From Desulfonatronovibrio magnus (GTDB lineage: Bacteria > Desulfobacterota > Desulfovibrionia > Desulfovibrionales > Desulfonatronovibrionaceae), in NCBI RefSeq assembly GCF_000934755.1, contig NZ_JYNP01000017.1:1-64000 (forward strand): DNA of 64,000 nt, given 5' to 3'. Positions 5,045 to 42,194 of the stretch are shown piece after piece (position 1 is the first letter of the stretch; every line of letters starts with the position of its first letter). Made by a program: the position numbers and the translations under genes. The notes below the pieces were generated by a model. That model was not told the origin of the DNA. It ran no database searches and saw only the letters and a program-made list of their open reading frames with translations.

Positions 5045-5131
5045 TGGTGCCGGAGGAGAGACTCGAACTCTCATGACCGTAAGGCCGCGGGATTTTGAGT
5101 CCCGTGCGTCTACCAATTTCACCACTCCGGC
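5045..5131 (-). tRNA. tRNA-Leu, anticodon CAA (reads UUG)
   Basis: The reverse strand folds as a class II tRNA: acceptor GCCGGAG pairs with CTCCGGC, the anticodon arm is CGGGA-CTCAAAA-TCCCG giving anticodon CAA, a long variable arm follows, and the T arm contains GTTCGAGTC. The 3' CCA (TGG at 5045-5047 on the plus strand) is encoded. Length 87 nt fits tRNA-Leu. Confidence 0.97.
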
Positions 5132-5770: not shown

Positions 5771-5862
5771 CACGGGGACTGGCTCTTCCGGCATTTATTT
5801 TTCTAATTTGTTTCTTGCTCAATAAAAAATAAGTGCCGGGGTGCCTGTCCCCACAAACATGA
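5771..5862. repeat. Family-B hairpin module, copy 1
   Basis: GGGGACTGGCTCT begins and GGTGCCTGTCCCC ends the unit; between them a long stem (CCGGCATTTATTTTT against AAAAATAAGTGCCGG) encloses a variable loop. Copies with the same ends but a different stem sequence lie at 17515-17595 and inside 33620-33791. Confidence 0.75.
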
Positions 5863-16385: not shown

Positions 16386-17495
16386 CTATTCAGTAAGTTG
16401 AGTTCGAAATGATATGGAATGCCAGCTTAAACATCTTGGACACAGAAAAAAGATATGCTCCCTTTTGAGGCCGCATCTGCGGCAGACAAATCTTTTTACC
16501 AGTCTGGCCTTTTGAGTAAAGAAAGTCAGCTGGGTCTTAAAAGACTCCGTCATGATCTGCTCGCTCTGAGATATGTCAAGAATTTCCAGCCTGGCAGGCC
16601 AGAACTGCTGGTCCATCACGAGAGACTTTTCCAACCATTGCTTAGACTGCTCCAACTGACCTGATTCTTTAAGAAAAATCGAACAATAATAGCTGAAAAT
16701 CAGATTCTGTTCCATGCTGCTGAGAATTTCAACAATAACCTTTGCACAATCAGGATTTATGACAAAGGTCCGGTCTTTGTTCTGGCTGTTTTTCCTGATA
16801 AACTGGTAAAGTCCTTCCAGCAAAACAAATCTCAAGTCGGGCTCGACACTGCTTAATGCCTTTTGCAGATTGCTTTTAAATGCCTTCCATCGACCTGAAG
16901 CATAATCCTGACACAAAAGTTCAAGCCAGGCTTCAACACATCCGGGATATATTTTTATGGACTTGTTAATTAGCTTCAGAGACTGGCTTTCATCATTGGC
17001 TGCCAGTGCTGCCTTAACAAGATAATGAGCTTGAGGCAGAGGTTGATCAAGCAGGCCATAATATTTGGCAGCCTTCTGGAAATCATTGGTTTCTGCGTAA
17101 AGTCTGGCCATTTCTTTAAGTATGGCTGGATCTTCACCTGTAATCTGGTAAGCCTGCTCAAAGGCAGAATGAGCACGATCATGAATGCCTGCTCTTTTAA
17201 AATCAATTCCCAGCTCAAACCATGCTCTTGCTTTAAACTGTTTGTTTAGTTGAGGCCTGGCAATCAGATTATTTCTAATCTGGATGGCCCGCTCAAGCTC
17301 ACCCTGAGAACGAAATAAATTGCCGAGGGCAAGATAAATTTCCACAGCATCAGGGTTATTTCTAACAACCCGACTAAGCTCGCTGATAGCTGAAAAAGTA
17401 TCTTGCGAAGGCGGTAGAAATCCTTCATCAGAGTGGACTAAAGAAGACTTGTCATTAGATGAGCCGCGTTTCAGCTTTTTAATCCATTTAAGCAT
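16386..17495 (-). CDS. lapB: LapB-like TPR protein with C-terminal rubredoxin-type zinc ribbon
   Basis: The 369-aa product consists of TPR helices (AIQIRNNLIARPQLN, ARAWFELGIDFKRAGIHDRA and others) and ends in FVCRRCGLK...FLCPRCLSWHS, two CxxC pairs that form the metal-binding ribbon of LapB (YciM). LapB controls the amount of LpxC, and hence lipopolysaccharide synthesis, through FtsH at the inner membrane. E. coli LapB has an N-terminal membrane helix; here the N-terminus is basic and polar, so membrane association would depend on LapA. Order lapA-(RNA)-lapB matches the LapAB pairing, though the two are split by about 380 bp. Confidence 0.8.
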   Translation of the reverse strand: MLKWIKKLKRGSSNDKSSLVHSDEGFLPPSQDTFSAISELSRVVRNNPDAVEIYLALGNLFRSQGELERAIQIRNNLIARPQLNKQFKARAWFELGIDFKRAGIHDRAHSAFEQAYQITGEDPAILKEMARLYAETNDFQKAAKYYGLLDQPLPQAHYLVKAALAANDESQSLKLINKSIKIYPGCVEAWLELLCQDYASGRWKAFKSNLQKALSSVEPDLRFVLLEGLYQFIRKNSQNKDRTFVINPDCAKVIVEILSSMEQNLIFSYYCSIFLKESGQLEQSKQWLEKSLVMDQQFWPARLEILDISQSEQIMTESFKTQLTFFTQKARLVKRFVCRRCGLKREHIFFLCPRCLSWHSISFRTQLTE

Positions 17496-17514
17496 ATGTT
17501 GCTCTGTTAAGAAA

Positions 17515-17595
17515 AAAAGGGGACCGGCTCTCCCGGCATTTATTTTTAAATAGCAATACTTACATCAAAAAATAAATGCTGGGACGCCTGCCCCC
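17515..17595 (-). terminator. Family-B hairpin, copy 2, acting as a terminator-like structure
   Basis: On the minus strand a long stem (AGCATTTATTTTT against AAAAATAAATGCC) is closed by GGGGGCAGGCGTCCC and GGGAGAGCCGGTCCCC and followed by seven T. It has the same conserved ends as the modules at 5771 and within 33620. It lies between the structured RNA and lapB, so it could end the lapA/RNA transcript while lapB is read from elsewhere. Confidence 0.55.
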
Positions 17596-17654
17596 TGCCT
17601 TCCTCAGAAAAAAGGAATGATCAAATAATAAGGTACCTATTCACCATGCTGGGA

Positions 17655-17835
17655 GGACAGCCTGTATCCTGATTAGTTTTCAGCTGCTGCAAACTCCCGG
17701 CATGAGCCAGTAAGTCAAAACCAGTAATTAATTAACGTAGCCGAGAGTCCGTCTTCATATCCTTGATTTTGACTAACAGGCTCAGGACTAGTCAAGCAAA
17801 CAGCAATGGCAAAAACCAATCAGGATGCAGGCTTT
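17655..17835 (-). ncRNA. ssrS: 6S-like regulatory RNA between lapA and lapB
   Basis: The minus strand folds into one long rod of about 175-180 nt with the layout of 6S RNA. A 21-bp closing stem pairs 17812-17832 with 17660-17680 (one mismatch, one G-U). Next comes a short UGCUG/CAGCA helix (17801-17805 with 17684-17688), then a large central bubble whose 5' side carries AGUCCUGAGCC (17778-17788 region), close to the AGUCCCCUGAGCC of E. coli 6S, and whose 3' flank carries UUUGCAGCAGC, comparable to CCUGCGGCGGC. A terminal stem of 10 bp pairs 17764-17773 with 17714-17723. G-U pairs in these stems favour the minus strand. 6S RNA mimics an open promoter and sequesters sigma-70 RNA polymerase in slow growth. 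No protein fits this interval. Confidence 0.68.
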
Positions 17836-17877
17836 ACGCAAAAGTGAAAAACCTGGTGAACAGTTACCAATAAAGAA

Positions 17878-18234
17878 CTAAGGACGTGATTCCTGCTGTT
17901 CAGGAGTTTCAGATGTATAGTTTTCGTCGTCAAGAGGCATATTGCGCAAGGAATTAACCTCTTCTTCCAGATCCTTAATTTGGGCTTTGCCTTTTTTAAG
18001 TTCTGAGGACAAGCGAAGTTTTTCTGCCAGCAGGTAAACCAGAGAAATAAATCCACCAGCCACAAAAGCAAGCAGCACGATCAGGTAATAGGGGATCTCC
18101 CTGCTTTCAAACTCAGCCCCGAAAAGTTCCAGGTGCAATCTGACCGTAGTAGAAAGCAACTCATGATTTTGAACGAAAAAAAGCATGGAAAAGAAAAACA
18201 AAAGAATCAGGGCAATTACTCTCAGATATTTCAT
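17878..18234 (-). CDS. lapA: LapA-domain (DUF1049) inner-membrane protein
   Basis: From ATG 18234 the product is 118 aa; AAGGAG lies 6 bp upstream, so the longer frame from 18264 is rejected. Two transmembrane helices (about residues 3-21 and 48-70) flank a short periplasmic loop with the 'VQNHELLSTTVRLHLELFG' pattern of LapA, and residues 70-98 form a charged coiled coil. LapA binds LapB at the membrane in lipopolysaccharide homeostasis. It follows the HIT gene by 10 bp. Confidence 0.85.
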   Translation of the reverse strand: MKYLRVIALILLFFFSMLFFVQNHELLSTTVRLHLELFGAEFESREIPYYLIVLLAFVAGGFISLVYLLAEKLRLSSELKKGKAQIKDLEEEVNSLRNMPLDDENYTSETPEQQESRP

Positions 18235-33619: not shown

Positions 33620-33791
33620 GTAACAGTTTAGCCATTTGCATGTGGCATGGCTTCCTGCCCGGAGGCATACAGCCCGGAGGGGGACTGGCTCTCTCAGCCC
33701 TTGTTTTATTAAGTCTGTGTTTTACATCAACAAAAAACAAGGGCTGGGGTGCCTGCCCCCTGCTTTCCTTAGAAAAGGGCTAAACTATTAC
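33620..33791. mobile_element. Family-B MITE, 172-bp copy with exact 8-bp target duplication
   Basis: Inverted ends GTAACAGTTTAGCC and GGCTAAACTATTAC are flanked on both sides by AACGAATC (33612-33619 and 33792-33799). Inside are GCATGTGGCATGGCTTCCTG, a GCCCGGAGGC unit and the family-B hairpin with stem CAGCCCTTGTTTT/AAAAACAAGGGCTG. No reading frame. This is a non-autonomous element moved by a transposase that makes 8-bp duplications; none is encoded in the window. Confidence 0.88.
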
Positions 33792-42075: not shown

Positions 42076-42194
42076 TCAAAAACTTAAAAAACCCAAAACC
42101 CAAATACTGTAACAGTCCGTCATCCCGGACCATGACCAGGGATAAGGAATGACTGAATTGAAAGTAGCCTCATGGTGGTGAACAGTTACAAACT

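Follow-up and report, generated by a model that had tools for sequence, protein, structure and literature searches.

The window analysed here, a 64,000-nt stretch of Desulfonatronovibrio magnus DNA, carries on its minus strand lapA (17878..18234, 118 aa; Pfam LapA_dom, E 1.3e-7) and, downstream of it, lapB (16386..17495, 369 aa). The lapB product matches TPR families and the NCBIfam model LapB with an E-value of 2.4e-42, yet it stays under that model's cut-off. As the first-pass annotation had stated, the gap between the two genes is free of other genes: no frame of at least 80 aa lies wholly within it. A mechanical frame of 83 aa (17820-18071) overlaps lapA and extends into the gap and over the edge of the element described below. 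At gathering scores, an Rfam search of the whole window returned only a tRNA at 5048-5131. Between the element and lapB, at about 17518-17605, lies a second dispersed hairpin repeat of about 80 bp. This repeat occupies 17 distinct places in the same genome (24 matches), with more copies inside the window at 5774-5852 and 33728-33776, and it is present also in the genomes G003, G006 and G009.

The region 17640-17850 is strongly folded. On the minus strand its folding energy is -80.1 kcal/mol, versus -54.5 (sd 4.2) for shuffled sequences (z -6.1), and none of 200 shuffles did as well; the plus strand reaches -63.6 kcal/mol (z -3.6), which 1 of 200 shuffles equalled. The fold is real and the minus strand is favoured, as had been observed before. 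The long closing stem, the additional helices, the central internal loop and the upper stem proposed earlier are all present on this strand, and the words AGUCCUGAGCC and UUUGCAGCAGC do occur in its sequence. The large bubble of the first-pass annotation, in contrast, has to be redrawn: there is an internal loop, and it is conserved, but the remainder of the supposed bubble is mostly helix. In the structure of our model R2, which was built from 17 copies of the hairpin, the wobble pairs of the window copy favour the minus strand as claimed, with eight G-U against one A-C; a strand-neutral alignment of the two arms gives five against two. The conserved core recognised by R2 spans 17649..17833 on the minus strand (198.9 bits in the window copy). 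On the same strand, a 5' internal-loop motif with the consensus TGTTTGACC, here TGCTTGACT, is found at 17790..17798, opposite a 3' internal-loop motif GGGAGTTTGCA at 17688..17698. Both are nearly invariant in 30 chosen copies.

The interval proposed earlier, 17655-17835, does contain this structure, but the true unit is wider. According to the repeat boundaries in aligned copies from the genus, it is a mobile element of 235 bp on the minus strand, 17633..17867. Its left terminal inverted repeat is GTAACTGTTCACC (13 bp, 17855..17867, minus strand), which is also found on other MITEs and on IS66 elements, and its right one is GTACCTATTCACC (13 bp, 17633..17645, plus strand), assigned from the aligned copies. 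The element thus combines the attributes of a MITE: a length of 235 bp, many copies, terminal inverted repeats and no frame of at least 80 aa wholly inside. The 8-bp flanks, given here for the minus strand, are CTTTATTG on the left (17868..17875) and CTTATTAT on the right (17625..17632). They match at only four of eight positions, which suggests that the window copy is an older insertion. A solo GTAACTGTTCACC end without an obvious partner lies at 42177-42189 of the window, again on the minus strand, and may mark the border of a small related element.

A BLAST search with the gap found copies in the same genome and in all five same-genus relatives; in total, 8 of 61 genomes were matched, some of them through the second repeat. 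With R2, we identified copies in each of the six genus genomes searched, the source genome included. In the latter, we count 31 distinct places for 51 matches, as a near-palindrome is matched on both strands. From chosen loci in the six genomes, rather than from all R2 matches, we collected 71 distinct copies. The pair of ends could be recognised in 59 of the 71 (at most four mismatches per end). Among these 59, the 8-bp target duplication matches at seven or more positions in 35 copies and at all eight in 22. When the right flanks were permuted among copies, a control that does not remove relatedness, the means were 0.4 and 0.05, respectively. An exact match to the core was present in 15 contigs, 14 of them from Desulfonatronovibrio. 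The remaining one is a 3.9-kb contig labelled Trueperaceae, on which a copy scoring 196 bits is located at L134 2799-2981; a binning error is likely in this case.

Insertion of the element into the lapA-lapB gap is specific to this lineage. In all 11 relatives with lapB, the corresponding gap is without an R2 match, and the only match in their loci is a weak one inside lapB (L217, 13.7 bits, E 0.2).

The same ends border four other MITEs in the genome, with lengths of 154, 178, 182 and 317 bp, each flanked by a perfect 8/8 duplication. We scanned 30 IS66 transposase loci (39 matches listed) for these ends. One of the 30, in genome G054, is bounded by GTAACTATTCAGC and GTAACTATTCACC, which delimit an element of 1727 bp with no clear target duplication. 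Its frame codes for an IS66 transposase (PF03050, E 3.5e-44; NF033517, E 1.8e-81). A decayed relative is retained in the D. magnus genome itself (C119:27132-27485); over 117 aa it is 64% identical to the G054 frame. There, GTAACTATTCACC is found 456 bp upstream (452 bp in G054), and the left end GTAACTATTCACCACATTTTTTT is close to that of the MITEs. Through these two elements, the MITE shares its ends with IS66 transposase elements. In a passage of PMC11946415, IS66 elements are described as generating 8-bp repeats and as having ends that begin with GTAAGCG; part of PMC12888890 gives the ends as GTAAGCG... and GTAACCGTCC..., with GTAACCG as another start. Since the ends are common to IS66 elements and accompanied by 8-bp repeats, movement by an IS66-type transposase acting in trans is well supported, though read from the ends. 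We take the ISBst12-like members with a single transposase to be the closest IS66 subgroup.

Our searches of the genus did not reveal an intact partner transposase bounded by these ends. The D. magnus genome has a single IS66 domain match, C48, whose 3.7-kb locus contains none of them, and we rejected an intact autonomous partner in this genome on that ground. Among the IS66-type elements encountered was one of 2622 bp with perfect 16-bp ends, GTAACTTCTCAATAGT, and an 8-bp duplication, CAAAAACA (L107 315-2936, G006:C430).

We next consider the interior of the element. The copies fall into subfamilies of about 221, 227, 229, 235 and 268 bp with strongly different stem sequences. For the analysis of covariation we used 30 of the 71 copies, picked for diversity, and found compensatory double changes in 31 of 44 pairs, so that the helices covary as in a structured RNA family. 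In 29 main copies, double changes affected 9 of 43 pairs, a value reached by none of 500 shuffles, which leave the relatedness of the copies in place. When columns with more than 10 gaps were omitted, the unpaired columns of the internal loops proved to be the most conserved class (mean 0.53 bit; 17 of 39 below 0.25 bit), followed by the paired columns (mean 0.81 bit; 20 of 88 below 0.25 bit) and the apical loop (mean 1.42 bit; 0 of 40). The fixed words are UGUUUGACC opposite GGGAGUUUGCA, UUUCG opposite AAGAAA, and CCGUUAG opposite CUUACGG. Judged from these alignments, the interior of the MITE appears to evolve like a structured RNA: the stems are rewritten with their pairing kept, and the loop motifs are fixed.

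A second model, R3, was used to scan the class under strict filters, with seven candidates scored per genome. It detected the hairpin in 16 of 348 class genomes, representing 4 of 59 genera: six genomes of the own genus, three each of genera g2 and g7, and four of g14 with a single match each. Over 395 genomes of the phylum (strict filters, six candidates scored per genome), R3 returned the own genome only. Six of the 12 copies examined in g2 and g7 have the end pair together with a duplication of 7/8 or 8/8 (g2 4/4, g7 2/8). In g7, two neighbouring copies in L236 share a poor end pair, and four copies have none at all. This locus carries three hairpin copies within 1.3 kb (584-762, 1501-1673 and 1712-1889; G037:C17). 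No end pair was found for the four g14 copies. Two of these, in G040 and G052, occupy the same place downstream of a frame that we called phosphoglycerate-mutase-like by eye, and the flanks of the other two (G060 and G067) differ. The structured interior thus occurs in four genera, and three of these carry it between the same transposon ends.

The hairpin matched no known family. Rfam 15 at E<=10 gave only matches to eukaryotic families, far below the cut-off, for 17480-17900, and the g2, g7 and g14 forms (8 loci searched) hit no Rfam family either; a known Rfam family was therefore rejected as an identity for the hairpin. Among the matches listed in our search of the open-access literature, no title or abstract describes an IS66-ended hairpin MITE family of this kind. 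None of the libraries searched contains this Desulfovibrionales family of hairpin MITEs with IS66-type ends.

Taken together, the sequence at 17633-17867 is very probably a non-autonomous IS66-type MITE whose insertion between lapA and lapB took place in this Desulfonatronovibrio lineage, and whose interior hairpin is under selection. An IS66-family transposase, supplied in trans, would bind the GTAACTRTTCASC ends and move the MITE. Selection would act on the folded molecule, as suggested by the compensatory stem changes and the fixed loops in four genera. We lean towards the view that this molecule acts as RNA. At this site the RNA would be read from the minus strand, as part of any transcript that continues past lapA, and it may protect or process the transcript, or it may bind a protein that favours the spread of the element.

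The preference for RNA is based on the two strands of the hairpin. An RNAalifold consensus fold has -66.3 kcal/mol in the sense direction and -43.5 in the antisense direction. We did not rely on its pair counts for strand bias since G-U pairs are allowed in the folding and A-C pairs are not; after they were replaced by the strand-neutral arm alignment, the bias came out weaker. This alignment comprises 57 of the 71 genus copies and 16 copies from other genera. The 14 omitted rows come from 11 loci with partial or poorly aligned copies; the omission was made by locus and includes one fair copy from L091. We counted 124 distinct G-U versus 88 A-C mismatches (one-sided binomial p 0.008, relatedness not removed). 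The excess is strong in g7 (15/2), g2 (4/0) and the subfamilies 227 (15/5) and 221 (8/3), mild in 235a, to which the window copy belongs (20/14), and in 234b (9/6), and absent or reversed in 229 (4/9), G002 (10/11), 268 (13/12), the other genus copies (22/21) and g14 (4/5). The better fold is that of the sense strand in 47 of the 71 genus copies, in 7 of 8 copies of g7 and in all four of g2, and in one of four of g14. The strand bias therefore favours RNA moderately overall and strongly in g2 and g7, but not in all groups. RNA may thus be preferred to DNA as the selected form of the hairpin, without certainty and as far as sequence comparison can tell. The earlier description of an unannotated, RNA-like structured element on the minus strand holds in so far as the stems covary and the wobble bias exists overall; the structure is, however, the interior of a MITE with dozens of copies and not a single-copy gene.

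It is possible that the hairpin acts as DNA instead: the transposase or a host factor would recognise it in extruded or single-stranded form during transposition, and this need would keep it paired. Covariation is equally compatible with pairing in DNA, the hairpin travels on IS66-type ends in three genera, and several subfamilies have no G-U excess. In addition, the copies show no orientation bias relative to host genes. Of the 31 copies in the D. magnus genome, 27 are placed between predicted frames, and each of the other 4 overlaps a mechanical frame of 91-110 aa; apart from these four, 11 are opposite to both neighbours, 7 have the orientation of both and 9 are mixed, so that no preferred orientation to flanking genes is apparent. 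However, we consider a DNA function unlikely. The G-U excess on one strand, most pronounced in g7, would not be expected from DNA pairing alone, and the g14 copies are without such ends. Moreover, the same-ended MITEs of 154, 178 and 317 bp are not among the R2 matches, and the hairpin is consequently dispensable for some elements with these ends.

Replication could also have produced the covariation with no selection at all. Repair of palindromes by template switching between the arms is known, and the arms of this hairpin are long and near-perfect; the arms of an imperfect palindrome would then be kept complementary, with covariation as a mutational by-product. Template switching should, however, erase mismatched internal loops, yet precisely these are the most conserved columns, and therefore copying between the arms is disfavoured. 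Nor would it explain why G-U mismatches are in excess on one strand. We regard this explanation as quite improbable.

A role as a cis-regulatory leader or attenuator specific to lapB is highly improbable. The hairpin does sit in the lapA-lapB gap in sense orientation, and two terminator-like sites follow it on the minus strand, where 0.3 are expected. These sites belong to the separate second repeat, though, and the same hairpin is found beside other frames in either orientation. We disfavour such a leader for the latter reason and because the gap of all 11 relatives is without the hairpin. Since the terminator-like sites precede lapB, read-through of a transcript from the element into lapB is doubtful. 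Only one promoter-like site was seen in the region, which is within chance.

The 6S RNA (ssrS) proposed by the first-pass annotation can be set aside as virtually impossible: despite the single long hairpin with its central internal loop and an apparent resemblance of short words, RF00013 gives no match in 17480-17900 at E<=10, the true 6S RNA of this genome lies at C16:25125-25308 (96.8 bits, cut-off 46.4), and the element is dispersed over 31 places, while the orthologous gap of all 11 relatives lacks it.

The internal-loop words of the MITE hairpin also resemble a hairpin of other bacteria, TGTYTGAGCG-N-AGCGAGTTT, with TGTYTGAGCGNAGCGAGTTT at its apex. The two have the words UGUYUGA / GAGUUU of the internal loop in common. 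We found the pattern TGTYTGAGCG-N-AGCGAGTTT in six viral contigs, two of which are identical around the motif, and a longer pattern in none of the viral contigs. Of 345 class genomes, one contains the short pattern, at a locus without remarkable folding. Near-matches on plasmids of Ilyobacter, Butyrivibrio, Parabacteroides and Variovorax have E-values at chance level, as do the best plasmid and phage BLAST hits (E 0.06 and 3). Eleven motif loci were folded: strong hairpins form at four (z -4.3 to -14.0) and a weak one at a fifth (-2.2), and the folding of the other six is unremarkable. The four strong loci include one on plasmid pNP243 of Butyrivibrio fibrisolvens, where a hairpin of about 200 nt, near-perfect and with a TGTTTGAGCGAAGCGAGTTT apex, lies between annotated genes (L270, about 1400-1620). 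The hairpins of other phyla differ from that of the MITE in that R3 is blind to the motif loci (none in 9 of 9 tested; its only match, in L263, lies elsewhere, with 11.1 bits and E 0.36) and in that 6 of 11 lack unusual folding. A hairpin word searched for in the literature had no match in the text. We regard the relationship as a lead, not as homology. A mobile structured-RNA family with the core UGUYUGACC facing GGGAGUUU, which would spread on IS66-type ends through Desulfovibrionales, bind a specific protein or act in trans and form a branch of a wider set of long bacterial UGUYUGA/GAGUUU hairpins across phyla, is a rather unlikely extension.

Among known systems, 6S RNA (RF00013) resembles the window element as a long hairpin with a central internal loop, but the element lacks a match to the model, is multicopy and mobile, and coexists with a real 6S RNA elsewhere in the genome. 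A 6S-like reading of a single window may thus turn out to be a mobile repeat. Correia/NEMIS, ERIC, QMITE2 and BOX elements are likewise small, multicopy, intergenic hairpin MITEs. A passage of PMC10969869 states that transcripts of hairpin MITEs are predicted to form stable stem-loops and that RNase III cleaves Correia-bearing transcripts. What may set the present family apart is the covariation of its stems, from one subfamily or genus to another, around loop motifs that stay fixed. Stable hairpins follow from the inverted repeats of MITEs and are easily mistaken for by-products; the present family makes it testable whether non-autonomous elements spread through an RNA or DNA structure that they carry. 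Compared with IS66 elements, the MITE is only 235 bp long and without a transposase, its ends read GTAACTRTTCASC, and its interior has no match to the G054 element past the ends. However, the 8-bp target duplication and the GTAA ends are common to both, and the ends of the MITE equal those of the G054 IS66 element.
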